Virus record (IMG/VR): IMGVR_UViG_3300029915_000146
Span: 1 to 23,648 of that record
Reading direction: 5' to 3' (one strand)
From: a virus
Length of the DNA stretch: 23,648 nucleotides
The notes under the pieces are model-generated. The model ran no database searches and was not told where the DNA came from. It saw nothing but the letters and a program-made list of their open reading frames with translations. Positions 1,294 to 16,322 of this stretch are shown in pieces; position 1 is the stretch's first letter; each line of letters begins with the position of its first letter. The position numbers and the translations under genes are program-made.

Positions 1294-2172
1294 CTACACC
1301 GCCGCCTTCTCGGCCACGGCCGCACTCACCAACAGCTCGTCACGGTAGCTGTTCCAGAAGCCGGTGGCCCAGCGGACGCGGGTCCAGCCCTGAGAGCAGG
1401 CCATGACCTTACCGATGGCATTCTCGCCGCCGTTCCAGGGGCCTGGCATGGGCTCGATGAGCTTGACCTGGTCGTTCCCAGCGAAGGGCGCCGGCGCTTT
1501 GGGTTCCTGGGGCGCCGCGGGGGGCTGGGCCTTCCGCACCGCTTCGGCCATGGCGACCACCGCGAGGTAGCCGGCCAGGTGCACAGGGGCGTCGGCGTGG
1601 GTGCGGCGGACGGACTTCTTGAACTCCTTGAGCGTGCCGGTGAAGCACCCGCAGCTGATCTTGTCCTTCTGCAGGTAGATGTAGGTGTAGCCGTTGCGGG
1701 AGCCGATGGGGCCCACGGAAATAAACTTGGAAAAATTTTTGGCGCCGACGAGGTTGGCGCCGACGAGGTTGGCGCCGTTGAGGTTGGCGCGGTCGAGGTT
1801 GGCGCCGTCGAGGTTGGCGCCGTTGAGGTTGGCGCCGTCGAGGTTGGCGCGGTTGAGGTTGGCGCCGACGAGGTTGGCGCCGTCGAGGTTGGCGCCGTCG
1901 AGGTTGGCGCCGTTGAGGTTGGCGCCGACGAGGTTGGCGCCGTTGAGGTTGGCGCGGTTGAGGTTGGCGCGGTTGAGGTTGGCGCCGACAAGGTTGGCGC
2001 CGTCGAGGTTGGCGCGGTTGAGGTTGGCGCCGACAAGGTTGGCGCCGTCGAGGTTGGCGCCGTTGAGGTTGGCGCGGTTGAGGTTGGCGCGGACGCCACC
2101 TTCATCATCCTGGAGCCAGAGTTTATGCAGGCGCAGGACTTCGGTGATCTGTTCGGGGGTATAGCGTTCCAT
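1294..2172 (-). CDS. Pentapeptide-repeat protein with C-terminal phage domain
   Basis: The protein has 292 aa. Residues 1-26 ([20 protein letters not shown]) form a short helical cap. Residues 27-141 are 23 consecutive pentapeptides of the type xxANL ([20 protein letters not shown]), which fold as a right-handed quadrilateral beta-helix in this family. A C-terminal part follows (about 142-195, with [16 protein letters not shown] and [16 protein letters not shown]). I recall such a tail from other phage pentapeptide proteins. A Pro/Ala-rich linker and a Trp-rich end finish the protein. I chose the ATG at 2172 because AGGAG lies 8 nt upstream; a GTG at 2211 in frame lacks this. Family members include gyrase-mimicking DNA-like proteins, but no such function can be claimed here. 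Confidence 0.85.
1741..2085 (-). repeat. 23 tandem 15-bp units coding pentapeptides
   Basis: The plus strand reads as 23 uninterrupted 15-bp units of the form GGCGCSGNYRAGGTT. Variation is confined to the base after GGCGC, the first codon of each coded pentapeptide (GAC, GTC or AAC) and a rare G-to-A in the Leu codon. The near identity at DNA level, including synonymous sites, shows recent expansion by slippage or unequal recombination. Copy number is likely to vary between relatives and to be error-prone in short-read assembly. Confidence 0.95.
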
Positions 2173-2253
2173 GCAGAGATCTCCTGTGGCGCCGGTTGGG
2201 CGCAGTTTCACGACCCCTGCCCGGGGCGTGGTTGAGTGAACGGGTTGAAGGTG

Positions 2254-2782: not shown

Positions 2783-2850
2783 GGCTATCCGGCTTTTTGG
2801 GTTGAATCCTAAAATGTGACCTTCTGTTCAAAGCCGGCAAATTGGGTTGA
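2783..2850 (+). repeat. Left transposon end: terminal repeat plus subterminal copy
   Basis: The outer site CCGGCTTTTTGGGTTGA (2789-2805) lies within and just beyond the left inverted repeat. It recurs 45 bp further in as CCGGCAAATTGGGTTGA (2834-2850), 14 of 17 identical and in the same orientation. Paired sites of this kind are expected for transposase binding. Confidence 0.75.
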
Positions 2851-2910
2851 CAGACGGACAGACCGGCCTAACCTTGAAGGTAGGGAAGGAAATCCCACTG
2901 GAGAAACGCC

Positions 2911-3330
2911 ATGAACACCACCATCGGAACCTGCACCCTGGACCGCGACCTTGAAACCGCCACGATGACCGGCCCCACCGGCAAGCACACCATCGACCGC
3001 TGCGGACAGGATGGCGAGACATGGGAAGCCAGGGTCAAGGCCCATTGGAACGGTTTCCTGGGCAACAATGGCGTCAAGGCCAGCCCGGTAGCCGTCAAGC
3101 CCATCAAGATGGCAGTAAAGGGTCCTGTGTCCTACAAGACCTACACCGTGACCATTCGCTTCCAGTTCCCCGCCTGGGACGAAGTTGAGGGCATCCCCTA
3201 CACCAACATCGAAGCCACCAGCAAGTCTGACGCCATCAAACAGGTTCGCCGGACGGCATGGGATGACGGACACACCGCCCTAGCCAGGGGAAAGGGGCGG
3301 ATAACCTTCACGGCAATTGAGTCCGAATGA
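2911..3330 (+). CDS. Transposon cargo gene 1, phage-type hypothetical protein
   Basis: The 139-aa protein starts MNTTIGTCTLDRDLETATM. Residues 1-60 look like a small beta-rich region, and about residues 70-115 (YKTYTVTIRFQFPAWDEVEG then SKSDAIKQVRRTAWDDG) resemble an alpha/beta fold common in small phage proteins. No catalytic motif is visible. GGAG stands 7 nt before the ATG. A TTGACA hexamer lies in the subterminal repeat region (2847-2852), but I see no good -10 box. It is inside the transposon, in line with the transposase. Function is unknown. Confidence 0.75.
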   Translation: MNTTIGTCTLDRDLETATMTGPTGKHTIDRCGQDGETWEARVKAHWNGFLGNNGVKASPVAVKPIKMAVKGPVSYKTYTVTIRFQFPAWDEVEGIPYTNIEATSKSDAIKQVRRTAWDDGHTALARGKGRITFTAIESE

Positions 3331-3353
3331 TGCGCCCCACCACATCCCTAGAC

Positions 3354-3371
3354 GCCCCGGAAGGGGCTTTT
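3354..3371 (+). terminator. Short hairpin plus T-run before cargo gene 2
   Basis: GCCCC (3354-3358), a GGAA loop and GGGGC (3363-3367) are followed by TTTT. A strong ribosome site, GAGGAG, follows, with the ATG at 3390. It is a weak intrinsic terminator or processing hairpin that closes cargo gene 1 and opens cargo gene 2. The same layout recurs at 3788-3808. Confidence 0.55.
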
Positions 3372-3389
3372 GGGGTAGAGGAGATACCC

Positions 3390-3761
3390 ATGACGACCCT
3401 AAACTTCCCCGAGCGGTCCAGCCAGCAGATCGCCAAGGATGCGATCAAGCACCTCGACAATGCGGTGCCGTTCGATACCACATTCCTATTCCAAGAGCCC
3501 GGGTGTGCCGCAGTGGGGCAAGGAACTGATCTCGCCAAGTCCATCGAGGTGGCGATGGAGAAGCGGTTCAACCTGTGGGCGGCATCGTGGCTGCGTCCCT
3601 ACCTGGAGGACATTACCAACCGCACTCCCGGCATGGATGCCCCTGAACTCATGGAGGTGTGCCGCCAGTTGGCAGATTGTGATTACGCTGCCCTCTCCCG
3701 GGTTGAGTCGGCTGCCCGCCAAGCCGTCACCATTGCTGGGCGTGTTCCAGTCACCACCTAA
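3390..3761 (+). CDS. Transposon cargo gene 2, hypothetical protein
   Basis: The 123-aa protein starts MTTLNFPERSSQQIAKDAIK and is predicted mostly helical and acidic. I do not recognise it. The ATG at 3390 has GAGGAG 7 nt upstream, which beats the in-frame ATG at 3327 that merely overlaps the stop of cargo gene 1 and would run through a hairpin. No membrane segment, signal peptide or metal site is seen. It is the middle one of three same-strand cargo genes, and codon use resembles the surrounding phage. Confidence 0.7.
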   Translation: MTTLNFPERSSQQIAKDAIKHLDNAVPFDTTFLFQEPGCAAVGQGTDLAKSIEVAMEKRFNLWAASWLRPYLEDITNRTPGMDAPELMEVCRQLADCDYAALSRVESAARQAVTIAGRVPVTT

Positions 3762-3787
3762 CCGACCTACCGGCAGCCGCTCGCATT

Positions 3788-3808
3788 GCCCCGTGAAGCC
3801 GGGGCTTT
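3788..3808 (+). terminator. Short hairpin plus T-run before cargo gene 3
   Basis: GCCCCG (3788-3793) and CGGGGC (3800-3805) enclose TGAAGC and are followed by TTT. GAAGGAG and an ATG at 3828 come next. The order hairpin, T-run, GGG, ribosome site, ATG is the same as before cargo gene 2, so the two genes sit in similar cassettes. Confidence 0.55.
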
Positions 3809-3827
3809 CGGGTTGAAGGAGCACTCC

Positions 3828-4115
3828 ATGAATATCCATACCCCCGGCCCCTGGGAAGCCCAGTTGAAGCCCCTTCCCGAGGGGAAGAAGATGCGGGACC
3901 AGGAAGTGACCGTTGTTGCTCCCTCCGGGGAGATCTGCACTGTCAGCACCCGCCCTGTTGAATGTGGCGGGAACGCCCACTTGATCGCCTCGGCTCCTGA
4001 CCTTTATGCCGCCCTGAAGGATCTGGTGGACGGAAACGACAGTCCTAACCTCCACTGGGATCCCAGGTGGATCGCCGCCAGCGAAGCCATCCGAAAAGCC
4101 GAAGGGATTGGTTGA
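3828..4115 (+). CDS. Transposon cargo gene 3, HTPGPW-type phage protein
   Basis: The 95-aa protein begins MNIHTPGPWE and contains NAHLIASAPDLYAALKDLVD at about residues 53-72. This pairing of an N-terminal HTPGPW and a later NA-LIA-APDL-AL segment is a widespread family of small uncharacterised phage and prophage proteins (known from memory). The start at 3828 has GAAGGAG 6 nt upstream. Finding such a phage gene inside an ISL3 element suggests the transposon picked up phage DNA at some point. Molecular function is unknown. Confidence 0.8.
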   Translation: MNIHTPGPWEAQLKPLPEGKKMRDQEVTVVAPSGEICTVSTRPVECGGNAHLIASAPDLYAALKDLVDGNDSPNLHWDPRWIAASEAIRKAEGIG

Positions 4116-4159
4116 TGGAAAACGTTTTTCTCCAGTCAGCGGTAAGCCATGATGGATGA

Positions 4160-5509
4160 ATGATCGACATGTTGAACCTGCCTAACCTACGTGCCCTGGA
4201 GGTCCAGGAAGAGCCAGAGCAATATTCCATCCTGGCCGAGACGGATACCAAGCCCGATTGGTGCGCGAAGTGCTACCACCGGGACCTCTACGCCCACGGG
4301 GCGCGGCGGCAGGTCTACATCGACACCCCTTCCCACGGGAAGATGGTGGCCATAACCCTGGACCGGAAGCGGTGGCGGTGCCGGAACTGCGGAGCCATCA
4401 CCCAGCAACCCTTGCCGGATATGGCCGATGACCACCAGATGACGCGGCGCCTGGTTGACCAGGTGGAGAAGATCGCCCTGCGCCGCACCTTCGCGGACGT
4501 GGCCCGAGAGACCGGGGTGGACGAGAAGACCGTCCGCAGGGTCACAGCGGCCTACATCAAGCGCCTAGAGGCCGCCCACAAGTTCCAGACGCCCCGCTGG
4601 CTGGGCCTGGACGAGATTTTCATCATCAAGAAGGCCCGGGGGGTGGTGGCCAACGTCAAGGACCGGTGCATGGTGGACCTGCTTCCCGACCGGAACAAGA
4701 TCACCGTTGGGACCTACATCAACACCGTCCTGGACCGGTCCAAGATCGAGGTGGTGACCATGGACATGTGGCACCCCTACCGGGACGTGGCCAGGGAACT
4801 TTGCCCCAAGGCCGTGGTGGTGGTGGACAAGTTCCATGTGGTCAGAATGGCTTCAGACGCCCTCAACACCGTCCGGAAGTCCCTTCGGGGGGATCTGGCC
4901 AAACGGGCCCGCCTGAAGCTCAAGGACGACCGCTGGATCCTCAACAAACGGTTCCGCGATCTGGACGATTGGCAGAAGATGATCCTGGAGACATGGAGCC
5001 AGGAGCATCCCATCCTGGGCAAGGCATGGGTGGCCAAGGAAGCCTTCTACGACATCTGGGACTGCAAGACGGCCCAGCACGCCCGGGACTGCTACGCCAT
5101 TTGGCGTGACCGCCTCCCCCAGGAGCTTTATGAGCAGTTCCGCCCCCTGGTGACGGCCCTGGAGAACTGGGACACCGAGATTTTCCGCCACTTCGACAAT
5201 GGGGCAACCAACGCCTACGTGGAGGCCCTGAACAGCGTGATCCGGGTCGTCAACCGGATGGGCCGGGGGTACTCGTTCGAGGTGTTACGCGCCAGGATGC
5301 TGTTCGCCCATGGGCACCAGCAGGCCGCCAAGAAGGTAATGAAGCGGCACCAAGCCTACTTCAGCAAGGTCGGCATGGAGGGGGTTGCTGGTTACCACTC
5401 CCAGCGGGACTACGCAGAGTTCATGGGCATTCCCGAGCTTGAGGAGCCCCAGGAACTGGGCGTTCCCCTCTCCGTCCTGGCAGACATGATCGAGCGCGGG
5501 GAGATCTAA
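4160..5509 (+). CDS. tnpA: ISL3-family transposase
   Basis: The 449-aa protein is full length for the family and uninterrupted. A zinc finger (C35, C38, C74, C77) is followed by a helix-turn-helix near residues 110-130 (RTFADVARETGVDEKTVRRV). The DDE catalytic core has D151 in LGLDEIF, a second Asp in VTMDMWHPY (D202) or VVVDKFHVV (D223), and E355 in NAYVEALNSVIRVV. It catalyses excision and insertion of the element through the end sequences at 2783-2804 and 5558-5579. No strong ribosome site precedes the ATG; another ATG lies 9 bases on. Transcription may depend on the cargo genes upstream. Confidence 0.95.
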   Translation: MIDMLNLPNLRALEVQEEPEQYSILAETDTKPDWCAKCYHRDLYAHGARRQVYIDTPSHGKMVAITLDRKRWRCRNCGAITQQPLPDMADDHQMTRRLVDQVEKIALRRTFADVARETGVDEKTVRRVTAAYIKRLEAAHKFQTPRWLGLDEIFIIKKARGVVANVKDRCMVDLLPDRNKITVGTYINTVLDRSKIEVVTMDMWHPYRDVARELCPKAVVVVDKFHVVRMASDALNTVRKSLRGDLAKRARLKLKDDRWILNKRFRDLDDWQKMILETWSQEHPILGKAWVAKEAFYDIWDCKTAQHARDCYAIWRDRLPQELYEQFRPLVTALENWDTEIFRHFDNGATNAYVEALNSVIRVVNRMGRGYSFEVLRARMLFAHGHQQAAKKVMKRHQAYFSKVGMEGVAGYHSQRDYAEFMGIPELEEPQELGVPLSVLADMIERGEI

Positions 5510-5511
5510 AC

Positions 5512-5579
5512 TTCCAACCTTTTATGCCGGATAGAACCCGTCTCAACCGACCGATTCCAACCTAAAAATCCGGATAGCC
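5512..5579 (-). repeat. Right transposon end: terminal repeat plus subterminal copy
   Basis: The outer site (5555-5577) and an inner site (5512-5534) share TTCCAACCT and CGGATAG at the same 7-bp separation. They lie 43 bp apart in the same orientation. Read inward they match the paired sites at the left end, so each end carries two probable transposase-binding sites. Confidence 0.75.
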
Positions 5580-5596
5580 GAAAATCTGAAAACTAT
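5580..5596. repeat. Right copy of 17-bp direct repeat flanking the transposon
   Basis: GAAAATCTGAAAACTAT, identical to 2766-2782, begins at the first base outside the right inverted repeat. The repeat itself looks like an imperfect duplication of an 8-9 bp word (GAAAATCT, GAAAACTAT). Confidence 0.9.
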
Positions 5597-5671: not shown

Positions 5672-5699
5672 TTGACTCTATCCAGTAAAGATATACTAT
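5672..5699 (+). promoter_or_regulatory. Rightward early promoter, probably leaderless transcript
   Basis: TTGACT (5672-5677) and TACTAT (5694-5699) are separated by 16 bp. The ATG of the next gene is at 5707, where transcription would be expected to start, and no ribosome site fits between. AGATATAC (5690-5697) overlaps the -10 box and repeats one arm of the operator at 2686-2706; the other arm is degenerate. Control by the same repressor is therefore plausible. Confidence 0.6.
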
Positions 5700-5706
5700 T
5701 TACTTC

Positions 5707-5949
5707 ATGGACCTCCGATCCCGCCTCACCATGCCCATCGCTGAACTCGCCCGGCTGATTCAGGCTCGCTCCTATCCCTCGTTGCACCGCCAAATCGCCG
5801 GAAAGCTTGGGGTATCTACCAAGCGCGCCCAACAGATTGAGGCAGCGTGCAACGGGGAGATCAAGGCCACCTGGTTGCTGGGTCTGGAAACGCCTCCCGT
5901 GGATCCTCATCCTTCCCCCTCCACGGAAACCAAAGTGGTGGACGCTTGA
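5707..5949 (+). CDS. Cro/YdaS-like helix-turn-helix regulator
   Basis: The 80-aa protein has an HTH-like core over about residues 28-60 (LHRQIAGKLGVSTKRAQQIE, then ACNGEIKATWLLGLE), followed by a disordered Pro/Ser/Thr tail. The size, the position as first gene of the rightward operon and the divergent leftward operon fit a Cro-type regulator that binds the operators at 2686-2706 and 5690-5697. It acts as a DNA-binding repressor by family analogy. It could instead be the phage repressor, since no CI-like gene with a peptidase or multimerisation domain is present here. The start is set by the promoter spacing. Confidence 0.7.
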   Translation: MDLRSRLTMPIAELARLIQARSYPSLHRQIAGKLGVSTKRAQQIEAACNGEIKATWLLGLETPPVDPHPSPSTETKVVDA

Positions 5950-9926: not shown

Positions 9927-10252
9927 CCCACAAAATAGGGGAATCTACGGCGAACAAGGCAAAAGCTGCCGGGAACCGGGGCAACGGCCGAAAAAAGGGA
10001 GTGCCCAATAAGGTCACCAAGGCACTCAAGGATGCGATCCTTGGTGCCCTGGAGGAGGCAGGAGGCGCTGGAGGATCCCAGGCTTATCTCCTACGCCAGG
10101 CGCGGAAGAAAAACCCCATGGCCTTCATGGCGCTGGTTGGCAAGGTGCTGCCCCTGCAAATCACCGGCGAGGATGGCGGGCCGCTACAGGTCAAGCACAT
10201 GAGCGACGCCGAATTGCTGGCCATCATCGCGAACGCAAAGCAGCATGGCTGA
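9923..10252 (+). CDS. terS: Probable terminase small subunit
   Basis: The 109-aa protein has a basic Gly/Lys N-terminus (NRGNGRKKGVPNKVTKALKD, about 16-35), a central helical part and the ending SDAELLAIIANAKQHG. Proteins with the GRKKGVPNK motif directly before large terminases are common in phages. By position they would recognise the packaging site and load the large subunit; that assignment is inferred from context rather than from a diagnostic motif. The start overlaps the previous stop (ATGA) and the 3' end overlaps the large terminase by 8 bases. Confidence 0.65.
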   Translation: MTHKIGESTANKAKAAGNRGNGRKKGVPNKVTKALKDAILGALEEAGGAGGSQAYLLRQARKKNPMAFMALVGKVLPLQITGEDGGPLQVKHMSDAELLAIIANAKQHG

Positions 10253-11771
10253 CCGTGCGGCGCTGGAGTTGGCCGCCTACGCCGCCCTCGAACTTGCGCA
10301 GCGTGCCAAGCGCTGGCGGCCCTACCCTGGGCCCCAGGGCTTGGCCATGCAGAGCGAGGCCGATATCCTGTTCTATGGCGGGGCGGCCGGCGGAGGTAAG
10401 ACGGATCTGCTACTGGGCACGGCCCGGTACCTGCACAACCGCTGCATCATTTTCCGGCGCGTCTCACCATCCCTACAGGGGATCATCGACCGCTCCAAGG
10501 AGATCTACACCCAGGCCGGGGATGGCACACTGGACAACTACAACGCCGGCCACAGCCGGTGGACCTTGGATGGGCGGCTGATCCGGTTCGGTTCGATCCA
10601 ATACGACGCCGATGTGACCGACTACCAGGGCCAGCCCTACGACCTGTACGGCTTCGATGAGATCACCGAGTTCACCGAGAATCAGTTCCGCTTCGTGACC
10701 GGCTGGAACCGCACCACCCGCCCCGGCCAGCGCTGCCGCACCATCTGCACCGGCAACCCGCCCACCGACAGCGACGGCGAGTGGGTGTTGACCTTCTGGG
10801 GGCCGTGGCTGGACCCGAACCATCCGCACCCGGCCCTGCCCGGCGAGCTGCGCTTCTACACCACCATCGCAGGCAAGGACGTGGAATGCCCGAATGGGGA
10901 CCCGGTGGAGGTGGACGGGGAGATGGTCAAGCCCCTGAGCCGCACCTTCATCCCGGCCAAGGTGCAGGACAACCCGGCCCTGATGGCCAGCGGCTACATC
11001 GCCCACCTGCAGGCCCTGCCGGAGCCCCTGCGCTCCAAGATGCTCTACGGAGACTTCCAGGCCGGCCGTGAGGACAACGCCTACCAGGTCATCCCCAGCG
11101 CCTGGGTTGAGGAGTCCATGGCCAGGTGGGAGAAGACCAAACAGCCCAAGGCGCCCATGACCGCCATCGGCGTGGACGTGGCCCGCGGTGGGAGGGACAA
11201 GACCTGCTTGGCACCGCGCTGGCTGCACTGGTTTGGCAAGGTGCACGCCGTTCCCGGCGCCAGCACCCCAGACGGCGCTGCGGTGGCCGGCCTCACCCTG
11301 GTGCATGCCAAAGACCGTGCCCAGGCCGTGGTGGATGTGATTGGCGTGGGTGCATCAGCCTACGACTTCCTGAAGACGAACGAGGCCGTGCGCGCGCTGC
11401 CCTACAATGGCGCCGGTAAGAGCTGGCGGACCGACAAGAGCGGCCAGTTGCACTTCATCAACAAGCGGGCGGAGTCCTACTGGCTGCTCCGGGAGGCGCT
11501 GGACCCAGCATCGCAGCTGGACCTATGCCTGCCGCCGGACTCGGAGCTCAAGGCGGACCTGTGCGCGCCCCGGTGGAAGCCTACGCCCACCGGGATCCTG
11601 ATTGAGCCCAAGGAAGACCTGGCCAAGCGGATCGGCCGGTCCCCAGACAAAGGCGACGCGGTGGTGATGTGCTGGGCCGCGCCTGGTGTACCAACAGAAG
11701 AAGAACCCCAGGAAGACCGCTTCCCGGGCATGGACCAGTTCACCAACGGAGGTAGCGGATGGCTGCGATGA
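10245..11771 (+). CDS. terL: Terminase large subunit (packaging ATPase-nuclease)
   Basis: The 508-aa protein has the standard length and order. The ATPase domain carries Walker A GGAAGGGKT (45-53) and Walker B YDLYGFDE (D138, catalytic E139), with a TGNP coupling motif at about 169-172. The RNase H-like nuclease domain has D311 in GVDVARGG, D364 in VVDVIGVG and D471 in KGDAVV. It pumps DNA into the prohead through the portal and cuts the concatemer. The product of 9923-10252 is its likely partner. The start overlaps the terS stop and the end overlaps the next gene. All catalytic acids are present. Confidence 0.95.
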   Translation: MADRAALELAAYAALELAQRAKRWRPYPGPQGLAMQSEADILFYGGAAGGGKTDLLLGTARYLHNRCIIFRRVSPSLQGIIDRSKEIYTQAGDGTLDNYNAGHSRWTLDGRLIRFGSIQYDADVTDYQGQPYDLYGFDEITEFTENQFRFVTGWNRTTRPGQRCRTICTGNPPTDSDGEWVLTFWGPWLDPNHPHPALPGELRFYTTIAGKDVECPNGDPVEVDGEMVKPLSRTFIPAKVQDNPALMASGYIAHLQALPEPLRSKMLYGDFQAGREDNAYQVIPSAWVEESMARWEKTKQPKAPMTAIGVDVARGGRDKTCLAPRWLHWFGKVHAVPGASTPDGAAVAGLTLVHAKDRAQAVVDVIGVGASAYDFLKTNEAVRALPYNGAGKSWRTDKSGQLHFINKRAESYWLLREALDPASQLDLCLPPDSELKADLCAPRWKPTPTGILIEPKEDLAKRIGRSPDKGDAVVMCWAAPGVPTEEEPQEDRFPGMDQFTNGGSGWLR

Positions 11772-14120: not shown

Positions 14121-16322
14121 ATGGGCAAACTCATCCGCCATGCCAAAGGCCTTCTCGGCTTGCTCGAGAAGGTCGAGGTGTCGGATGAGGACCGTGAATT
14201 CATCACTGACGTGCGCAAGAAATATGACCTGGTGGTGGAGGCCGAGAAGGAGCAGCGTACCAAGGAGCTGGCTGACCTGATGTTCTGCGACCCGGCCCGG
14301 CAGTGGCCGGATGTCATCCGGACCCAGCGCGAGGCCGAGGACCGCCCCTGTCTGTCGGAAGACCAGATTGGGCCGTTCATCGCTGAGGTGTGCAACCAGC
14401 AGCGCCAGAACCGGCCCATGCCGATGGTGAGCCCGGTGGCCGACGGCGCCGACGAAGATGTCGCCGAGGTCTACCAGGGCATGATCCGGCACATCCAGGC
14501 CGAATCCAACGGCGACACCGCCCGCGATACGGCTTTTGAATCCATGACCCGTTGCGGCCGAGGTTTCTACCGCCTCTACACCGACTACGAGGACCCGAGG
14601 TCCTTCAACCAGGTCATCAAATACGCTCGGATCCCGAACCACTTCATGGTGTTCTTCGATCCCTCCAGCCAGGAGCCGGACGGGTCAGACGCCCAGTGGT
14701 GCATCCTCGAGGAGGATTTCACCCGGGATCGGTTTGAAGAGACCTTCCCCAACGCGGAGCTCAGCACCCTCGGGACCGAGGCGTGGGAGTCCGTGGGGGA
14801 CGCCGCTCCGGGCTGGATGAGCAAGGACGGCGAGTCCATCCGCGTGGTGGAGATCTACTACGTCAAGTGGAAGCACGTCACCATCTGCCTGTTGGATGAT
14901 GGCAAGACCTGTGAGGAGGAGCAAGTCCCCAAAGGCAAGAAGGTCAAGGACCGGCGCCCCAGCCAGGTGCCCACCATCAAGTGGGCCAAACTCACGGCCG
15001 CCGAGGTATTGGACCGGAAAGACGTGATCGGAACACACATCCCTGTCCTCCCGGTGCTGGGCAAGGAGCTGAACATCAACGGCGAGCGCAGCTGGGCCGG
15101 CATGGTCCGGGCTCTGAAGGACCCGCAGATGCGGCTGAACTTCTTCCTCAGCGCACAGGCCGAGATCATCGCCCTGGCCCCGCGGGTGCCCTACATCGGG
15201 CCCGTTGGTTTCATGGGCAACCGCCGCAAAGAATGGGAGCAGGCCAACAAGCGTTCCATGGCTGCCCTCGAATACGAGGTGGTGGCCGTGGATGGCAAGC
15301 CCATGCCGGCGCCCAGCCGGGACATGTCCGAGCCGCCCATCCGGGCCATCACCGAGGCCTACCAAGGCGCGATGAACAGTCTGAAGTCGGTATCTGGCAT
15401 GTATAACCCCACAAGGGGCAATGCCGAGCACGATCTCTCTGGCGTCGCTACCAAGGCCCTCATCGGCCAGGGCGACTTGGTCAACTTCCACCTGACGGAC
15501 AACCTGACCCGGACCATCCTCCAGGAGTGTCGGATTCTGGTGGAGTGGATCCCGCTGGTCTATGACACCGAGCGAGTGGTCCAGGTTGTCAAAGACGAGG
15601 GGACCCAAGAGACCGTGACCATCAACCAGGACCCGGAGAGCGGCGACCGCTACTCCTCCGAGACTAAGAAGGCCCTGGATGTCACCAGCGGCAAGTTTGC
15701 GGTGACCATCAACGCCGGCCCGAACTACGCCACCAAACGCATCGAGAACCTGCACGTCATGCTGTCCATGCTGGCGCAGATCCCCAACATGGGCCCGCTG
15801 GCCGGTGATCTGGTCGTGTCCCAGATGGACACCCCCATCGCCAAGAAGATCGCCGAGCGCCTGCATATGGGCCTGCCACCAGCAGTCCTGCAGGCCGAGG
15901 CCGCCGAGGCGAACGGGAAGAAGCAAGATCCGCAGGTGGCCGGTCTGATGACCCACGTGCAGCAGCAGCAGCAGCTCATTCAGAACCTGACCCAGAACCT
16001 GAGCCAGATGCAAATCAAACTTGAGTCCAAGACCCTCGAGAACGCGACCAAGATCCAGACCGCGCTGATCAGCGCCCGGGCCGGGATCATTGAGGCCCGC
16101 GAGCGCGCCGAAATGGAGCGCCAGGACTCCGTGATGACCGCGGCCTTCGACCAGGCCCTCACGCACATCGACCGTCAATACGACCTGCTCCAGAACGCGC
16201 AGCAGGCCGCGTTGACCCCCCCTCAGCCGCAAGGCGGACCAGCTGGCAATGGTGCCGGTGGGGCGCCCCAGGCCCAACCCGCTGGCGTCCCCGCCGGTAA
16301 TGGAGCACCAAATGGACAGTGA
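14121..16322 (+). CDS. P22-type portal protein
   Basis: The 733-aa protein is close to P22 gp1 (725 aa) in length. Early motifs include RQWPDVIRTQREAEDRPCLS and FIAEVCNQQRQNRP, then a RCGRGFYRLYTDYED core and FDPSSQEPDGSDAQWC. An alpha-helical barrel segment (about residues 605-680, rich in Gln/Lys/Glu) and a Gly/Pro/Asn-rich disordered tail follow. It forms the dodecameric ring at one vertex for DNA entry and tail attachment and works with TerL and the scaffold. There is no clear ribosome site; ATG 14121 follows the upstream stop by 3 nt. The end overlaps the scaffold start by 11 bases. Confidence 0.92.
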   Translation: MGKLIRHAKGLLGLLEKVEVSDEDREFITDVRKKYDLVVEAEKEQRTKELADLMFCDPARQWPDVIRTQREAEDRPCLSEDQIGPFIAEVCNQQRQNRPMPMVSPVADGADEDVAEVYQGMIRHIQAESNGDTARDTAFESMTRCGRGFYRLYTDYEDPRSFNQVIKYARIPNHFMVFFDPSSQEPDGSDAQWCILEEDFTRDRFEETFPNAELSTLGTEAWESVGDAAPGWMSKDGESIRVVEIYYVKWKHVTICLLDDGKTCEEEQVPKGKKVKDRRPSQVPTIKWAKLTAAEVLDRKDVIGTHIPVLPVLGKELNINGERSWAGMVRALKDPQMRLNFFLSAQAEIIALAPRVPYIGPVGFMGNRRKEWEQANKRSMAALEYEVVAVDGKPMPAPSRDMSEPPIRAITEAYQGAMNSLKSVSGMYNPTRGNAEHDLSGVATKALIGQGDLVNFHLTDNLTRTILQECRILVEWIPLVYDTERVVQVVKDEGTQETVTINQDPESGDRYSSETKKALDVTSGKFAVTINAGPNYATKRIENLHVMLSMLAQIPNMGPLAGDLVVSQMDTPIAKKIAERLHMGLPPAVLQAEAAEANGKKQDPQVAGLMTHVQQQQQLIQNLTQNLSQMQIKLESKTLENATKIQTALISARAGIIEARERAEMERQDSVMTAAFDQALTHIDRQYDLLQNAQQAALTPPQPQGGPAGNGAGGAPQAQPAGVPAGNGAPNGQ

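Follow-up and report, generated by a model that had tools for sequence, protein, structure and literature searches.

A passenger-carrying ISL3 transposon with phage-type cargo in a tailed-phage genome and its relatives in viral records

Introduction

Positions 2783 to 5579 of a virus record very probably form a passenger-carrying ISL3 transposon, which inserted between genes, in a control region of the genome of a tailed phage, and in which three phage accessory genes would move together with the transposase. The element is a new and divergent passenger-carrying ISL3 transposon with phage cargo, while passenger-carrying ISL3 elements as such are already known in bacteria. More interesting than this single element is the wider group of ISL3 elements in phages. 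Recombination, homologous or illegitimate, is the common explanation for the mosaicism of phage genomes, in which transposons are often considered rare. If the reading of the wider group presented below is true, phage transposons carrying methyltransferases, Lar-like proteins and antirepressors are widespread, move intact between unrelated phages and trade cargo, thereby providing a second and quickly testable route for the spread of counter-defence.

The analysed stretch, here called the window, is the linear virus record IMGVR_UViG_3300029915_000146 in its full length of 23,648 bp (positions 1-23,648). A large terminase-like protein is encoded at 10245-11771 and a portal protein of tailed-phage type at 14121-16322 (match to phrog_156). 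In the proposed layout of the element, a composite left end is followed by variable passenger genes, the transposase and a composite right end; the transposase would recognise both ends and move all DNA between them, with the three small phage accessory genes travelling as a unit.

Boundaries of the element

The following features were located in the window by the approaches given in brackets:

2766-2782, no strand: left copy of the 17-bp direct repeat GAAAATCTGAAAACTAT, resembling a target duplication (exact repeat)
2783-2804, plus strand: left terminal inverted repeat GGCTATCCGGCTTTTTGGGTTG (repeat search, end-pair scan)
2834-2850, plus strand: inner end-motif copy (14/17), 45 bp inside the left end, forming a composite left end with the terminal repeat
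2911-3330, plus strand: passenger ORF1, 139 aa, with the motif VTIRFQFPAWDE (phrog_13774 match, 5e-19)
3354-3367, plus strand: terminator-like GC hairpin followed by TTTT in the gap between ORF1 and ORF2 (read from the sequence)
3390-3761, plus strand: passenger ORF2, 123 aa, with a longer start possible at 3327 (no family match)
3788-3805, plus strand: terminator-like GC hairpin followed by TTT in the gap between ORF2 and ORF3 (read from the sequence)
3828-4115, plus strand: passenger ORF3, 95 aa, beginning with MNIHTPGPW, an HTPGPW-type phage protein (phrog_1273 match, 3.4e-14)
4160-5509, plus strand: intact ISL3-family DDE transposase, 449 aa (Pfam domains, alignment)
5512-5534, minus strand: inner end-motif copy, 43 bp inside the right end (direct and inverted repeat families)
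5558-5579, minus strand: right terminal inverted repeat (repeat search, end-pair scan)
5580-5596, no strand: right copy of the 17-bp direct repeat GAAAATCTGAAAACTAT (exact repeat)

An initial sequence-only reading had described an ISL3 transposon at 2783-5579 with 22-nt ends matching at 20 of 22 positions, a full DDE transposase and three same-strand ORFs, and the Pfam and repeat searches agree with this description. The terminal inverted repeats (22 nt, 20/22 complementary) are the sole pair of this kind at a spacing of 1-5 kb in the window, and no such pair occurred in any of 20 first-order shuffles. Both ends start with GGCTATCCGG..., and the terminal repeats begin with GG, in agreement with published ISL3 ends. 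The arrangement of terminal and inner repeat is kept over about 80 bp in relatives, and composite ends of this kind would be those bound by a transposase. Since the exact 17-bp repeat, which was absent from the sequence-only reading, adjoins both ends, the boundaries are fixed independently.

A second left end before 4160 had been named as an observation that would speak against the element. Inside the element there is no internal match of at least 16/22, and no further left end was found between 2804 and 4160. Two 17-mers resembling the terminal repeat (13/17) precede ORF2 and ORF3 at 3363 and 3800; these were rejected as decayed internal left ends because they lie inside the terminator-like hairpins and mismatch in the first six end bases.

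Target duplications in the ISL3 family are 8 bp long and characterise the individual insertion rather than the enzyme. In the relatives described below, target duplications are 8 bp, the length by which these relatives were themselves delimited, and none runs longer. The window element has no 8-bp target duplication and instead the 17-bp repeat, which is atypical. The 17-mer can be written as GAAAATCT-G-AAAACTAT, and both octamers resemble the usual targets of the ISL3 group. A possible, albeit rather improbable, origin of the repeat would be a recombination event within the element that joined two phage genomes carrying insertions 9 bp apart with the 8-bp duplications GAAAATCT and AAAACTAT. 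The left junction of one insertion and the right junction of the other would then give exactly 8+1+8 = 17 bp, and the two 8-mers are similar to AT-rich duplications of relatives, e.g. GAAAAGAG, GAAAAAAG and GAAAATCA. However, this requires two independent nearby insertions and a crossover, no second example was found, and the 17-mer may instead stem from a 17-bp stagger or from operator-like repeats already present at the site.

Transposase of the window element

In Pfam, the transposase matched DDE_Tnp_ISL3 (PF01610; 1.3e-57) as well as HTH_Tnp_ISL3 and Zn_ribbon_ISL3 (PF13542, 4.2e-9; PF14690, 3.4e-7), all above the curated cut-offs, and the residues D151, D202, D223 and E355 were invariant in an alignment with eight relatives. 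In the tree, it forms a deep, lone and long branch, 43% from the nearest relative and in no supported set. An exact search of viral contigs with transposase peptides gave no match, and a second DNA copy of the element was not found in viral contig and DNA searches. Because no second copy was found, we infer, rather than observe, that the window copy is or was mobile. A search with the window end sequence returned one match, which lies inside an unrelated structural gene and was rejected as a chance match.

Passenger genes

The three ORFs are located on the same strand within the 1,377 bp from the left end to the transposase start. The proposal that the cargo is of phage type held for ORF1 and for ORF3, whose assignment to the HTPGPW phage family was confirmed by the match to phrog_1273, while ORF2 is an orphan with nothing in Pfam or PHROGs. 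The C-terminal 60-80 aa of ORF1 correspond to a small phage domain (phrog_13774), which stands alone in other phages such as Pseudomonas phage KPP23 and Caulobacter phiCbK-like phages; relatives of ORF1 in viral contigs are ORFs of 62-112 aa. Residues 76-138 were modelled with about 90 pLDDT, and the fold of this C-terminal domain had no significant match among PDB or viral structures. For ORF3, relatives were detected in Vibrio phages 1.263.A and 1.263.B (tblastn); an exact search of viral contigs gave nothing, and its predicted structure is a poor model. None of the three ORFs has a relative in the remaining set of 108 passenger ORFs from the survey described below.

The viral-contig records with ORF1 relatives, some of them fragments, contain neither phrog_1273 nor a phrog_5749 transposase; thus, as far as testable, the three genes do not form an established cassette of phages. 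Also, the trio was absent from the 11 records with a related terminase, several of which are fragments; its presence in related phages had been named in advance as counter-evidence.

According to a simpler explanation, a plain ISL3 insertion sequence lies beside three resident genes owned by the phage, and the left end is due to chance or is an older relic. ORF1 and ORF3 indeed belong to phage families, cargo, transposase and phage have similar GC contents (0.61, 0.63 and 0.63), and the cargo ORFs are set apart by terminator-like hairpins in the manner of phage genes. However, no other such end pair occurs in the window and the 17-bp direct repeat adjoins exactly 2783 and 5579, an alternative left end is missing between 2804 and 4160, the trio does not occur in the records with a related terminase, and related elements consistently hold cargo at the same position, which makes this explanation highly improbable.

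Related ISL3 elements in viral records

Viral contigs were searched with the eight-transposase alignment, which resulted in 80 loci. Loci from named phages and from two bacterial genomes brought the set to 93, and each was checked for inverted ends accompanied by an exact 8-bp duplication. The loci were sampled by transposase similarity and not by cargo. Inverted ends with an exact 8-bp duplication were detected at 58 of the 93 loci, compared to one with shuffled flanks. IMG/VR contigs may represent prophages or misfiled DNA, a caveat that does not apply to Fraca, DMCA, K256, K251, Val-yong3, Seahorse and BSP9, which are named phage isolates in which both ends and the duplication were detected.

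Each of the 56 delimited viral elements contains 358-2167 bp (median 988 bp) in addition to the transposase, almost always in the interval from the left end to the transposase. Passenger carriage is therefore not exceptional in this ISL3 subgroup, and the earlier statement that ISL3 elements usually carry only the transposase is wrong for it. The 111 passenger ORFs considered include the three of the window, one from a locus with ends not found (L014) and a small number that come from a bacterial genome, and their named families are mostly of phage type. These comprise Lar-like restriction alleviation proteins (5 members), Dam, D12 and C5 DNA methyltransferases, YopX, antirepressors (BRO-N, KilAC, P22AR), PAPS reductases and DndC/SspD-like proteins. 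In bacterial counterparts, the cargo is bacterial as well: that of the Planococcus counterpart consists of a heavy-metal ATPase and an ArsR regulator, that of the Paenibacillus counterpart of Rrf2, oxidoreductase and MFS genes. In Pseudomonas phage vB_Pae_HB2107-3I (L015, 1099-4231), two ISL3 transposase genes are located about 0.5 kb apart; ends were not found there.

Anti-defence cargo, suggested in the sequence-only reading, is thus supported among relatives by Lar-like proteins and DNA methyltransferases, but was not recovered for the three proteins of the window, which have no functional match in Pfam or PHROGs (for ORF1, also none in PADLOC). That the three cargo proteins act jointly in anti-defence, e.g. 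in restriction alleviation, superinfection exclusion or anti-CRISPR, we consider unlikely: related elements do hold Lar-like proteins, DNA methyltransferases and DndC/SspD-like proteins, but ORF1-3 gave no match to a defence, anti-defence or functional family, the ORF1 fold has no significant match, and the ORF3 model is poor. An anti-defence role of the window cargo is plausible by association only, and the cargo would presumably be of benefit to the phage.

Mobility of related elements

A 2,484-bp element, consisting of a D12 N6 methyltransferase gene and the transposase gene, occurs with 100% identity in 17 Vibrio phage records belonging to two phage kinds (14 records of 37.5 kb, 3 of 42.7 kb). 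In the two kinds, the flanks are without similarity and the 8-bp duplications differ (GAAAAGAG vs GAAAAAAG). Siblings of the second kind (40,230 bp) have the exact empty site with 992 bp identical and a single 8-bp copy, and the sizes fit, as 42,722 - 40,230 = 2,484 + 8. For the Seahorse element, an empty site is present in phage V039C (454 nt contiguous, 94%). As judged from these sequence comparisons, the relatives are mobile. The same unit with the same ends at unrelated loci, which the sequence-only reading had proposed as a check, was hence seen for the Vibrio methyltransferase element but not for the window element, of which a DNA copy was not found. The sibling isolates K251 and K242 provide a ready natural experiment with one phage with and without the methyltransferase transposon. 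In this sibling pair, L016 (3383-5882) and L135 (K251 g2 and K242), the insertion point of the transposon is close to the beginning of a gene with the annotation transcriptional regulator.

Cargo exchange and nested left ends

Near-identical transposases carry unrelated cargo, and the outer 70-80 bp of the elements remain alike. Pairs with unrelated cargo are L013 (methyltransferase) and L071 with 94% transposase identity, L098 and L099 with 96%, and L019 (Dam) and L085 with 81%. In the last pair, the left 78 bp are 96% identical, and identity is 85% over the last 103 bp upstream of the transposase. The Seahorse element (L018, 3241-3732) contains a complete internal left end with terminal repeat (20/22) and inner repeat; the distance between its two left ends is 398 bp, and they enclose an ORF. 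This double left end is possibly a snapshot of cargo gain and suggests that elements acquire cargo once an additional left end has arrived upstream and this outer end is the one used. Across the broad ISL3 group in phages and prophages, to which the window element probably belongs, the passenger segment would be swapped while ends and transposase persist, and elements may plausibly gain cargo by picking up a further left end on the outside, as in Seahorse, a mode deduced from such arrangements.

With even odds for and against, we propose that phages host a distinct and active ISL3 population of interchangeable carriers of accessory genes, chiefly for anti-restriction and antirepressor functions. 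Cargo would be gained and lost by stacking or swapping left ends, and counter-defence would pass from one phage to an unrelated one with no need for homologous recombination. The element of the window would be a divergent member of this population with three new cargo genes.

Comparison with described elements

ISPst2, ISPst2a and ISPst2b belong to the ISL3 family and were described from Pseudomonas stutzeri and Arthrobacter plasmids (PMC6305408). Like the window element, ISPst2 is about 3 kb in size, has an ISL3 transposase and passenger genes (two), and its ends GGGTATCCGGAATTTCTGGTTGAT, starting with GGGTATCCGG..., are close to GGCTATCCGGCTTTTTGGGTTGAA of the window; in contrast, its passengers are bacterial (permease, ArsR regulator), it is plasmid-borne, and it has an 8-bp duplication (PMC6305408). 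ISPpu12a is likewise a passenger-carrying ISL3 element (3.4 kb), but has heavy-metal cargo of czcD type and Pseudomonas as host (PMC4447125).

The Vibrio K256/K251 element shares with the window element a related ISL3 transposase (38.6% identity), phage-type cargo upstream of the transposase and the location within phage genomes, whereas it differs in size (2,484 bp), in its D12-class N6 DNA methyltransferase cargo, in having 8-bp duplications and in that its movement can be traced. A description of this element was not found in searchable papers. The Seahorse region also combines an ISL3 transposase and cargo in a phage, with its empty site known from the comparison above, but has a nested internal left end. 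In the Seahorse paper, the transposase was read as involved in integration of the phage into its host (PMC7012835). Among open-access full texts, no description of ISL3 elements with phage-type cargo in phages was found.

Insertion site

The insertion is flanked by leftward genes, which end near 2640, and by a rightward repressor-like ORF at 5707 (weak match). It lies between divergent operons, perhaps in the repressor control region of the phage. In viral contigs, no relative of the terminase exceeds 52% identity, and among these relatives neither a close phage relative nor an empty site for the window element was found. Operator-like palindromes are present on both sides of the insertion at 2687-2706 and 5677-5696 (TATCTGAAAAAGATA; TATCCAGTAAAGATA), and the 17-bp repeat has a part in common with the first of them (ATCTGAAAA).

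On the left flank, no DNA match extends past a pentapeptide-repeat gene (1294-2211, minus strand), whose product has a Pfam match of 1.5e-37 and a long run of tandem repeats of the ANLxxAxL type. Pentapeptide-repeat proteins may act by DNA mimicry. At the DNA level, this gene has relatives in many mycobacteriophages as well as in Rhizobium and Pseudomonas phages.
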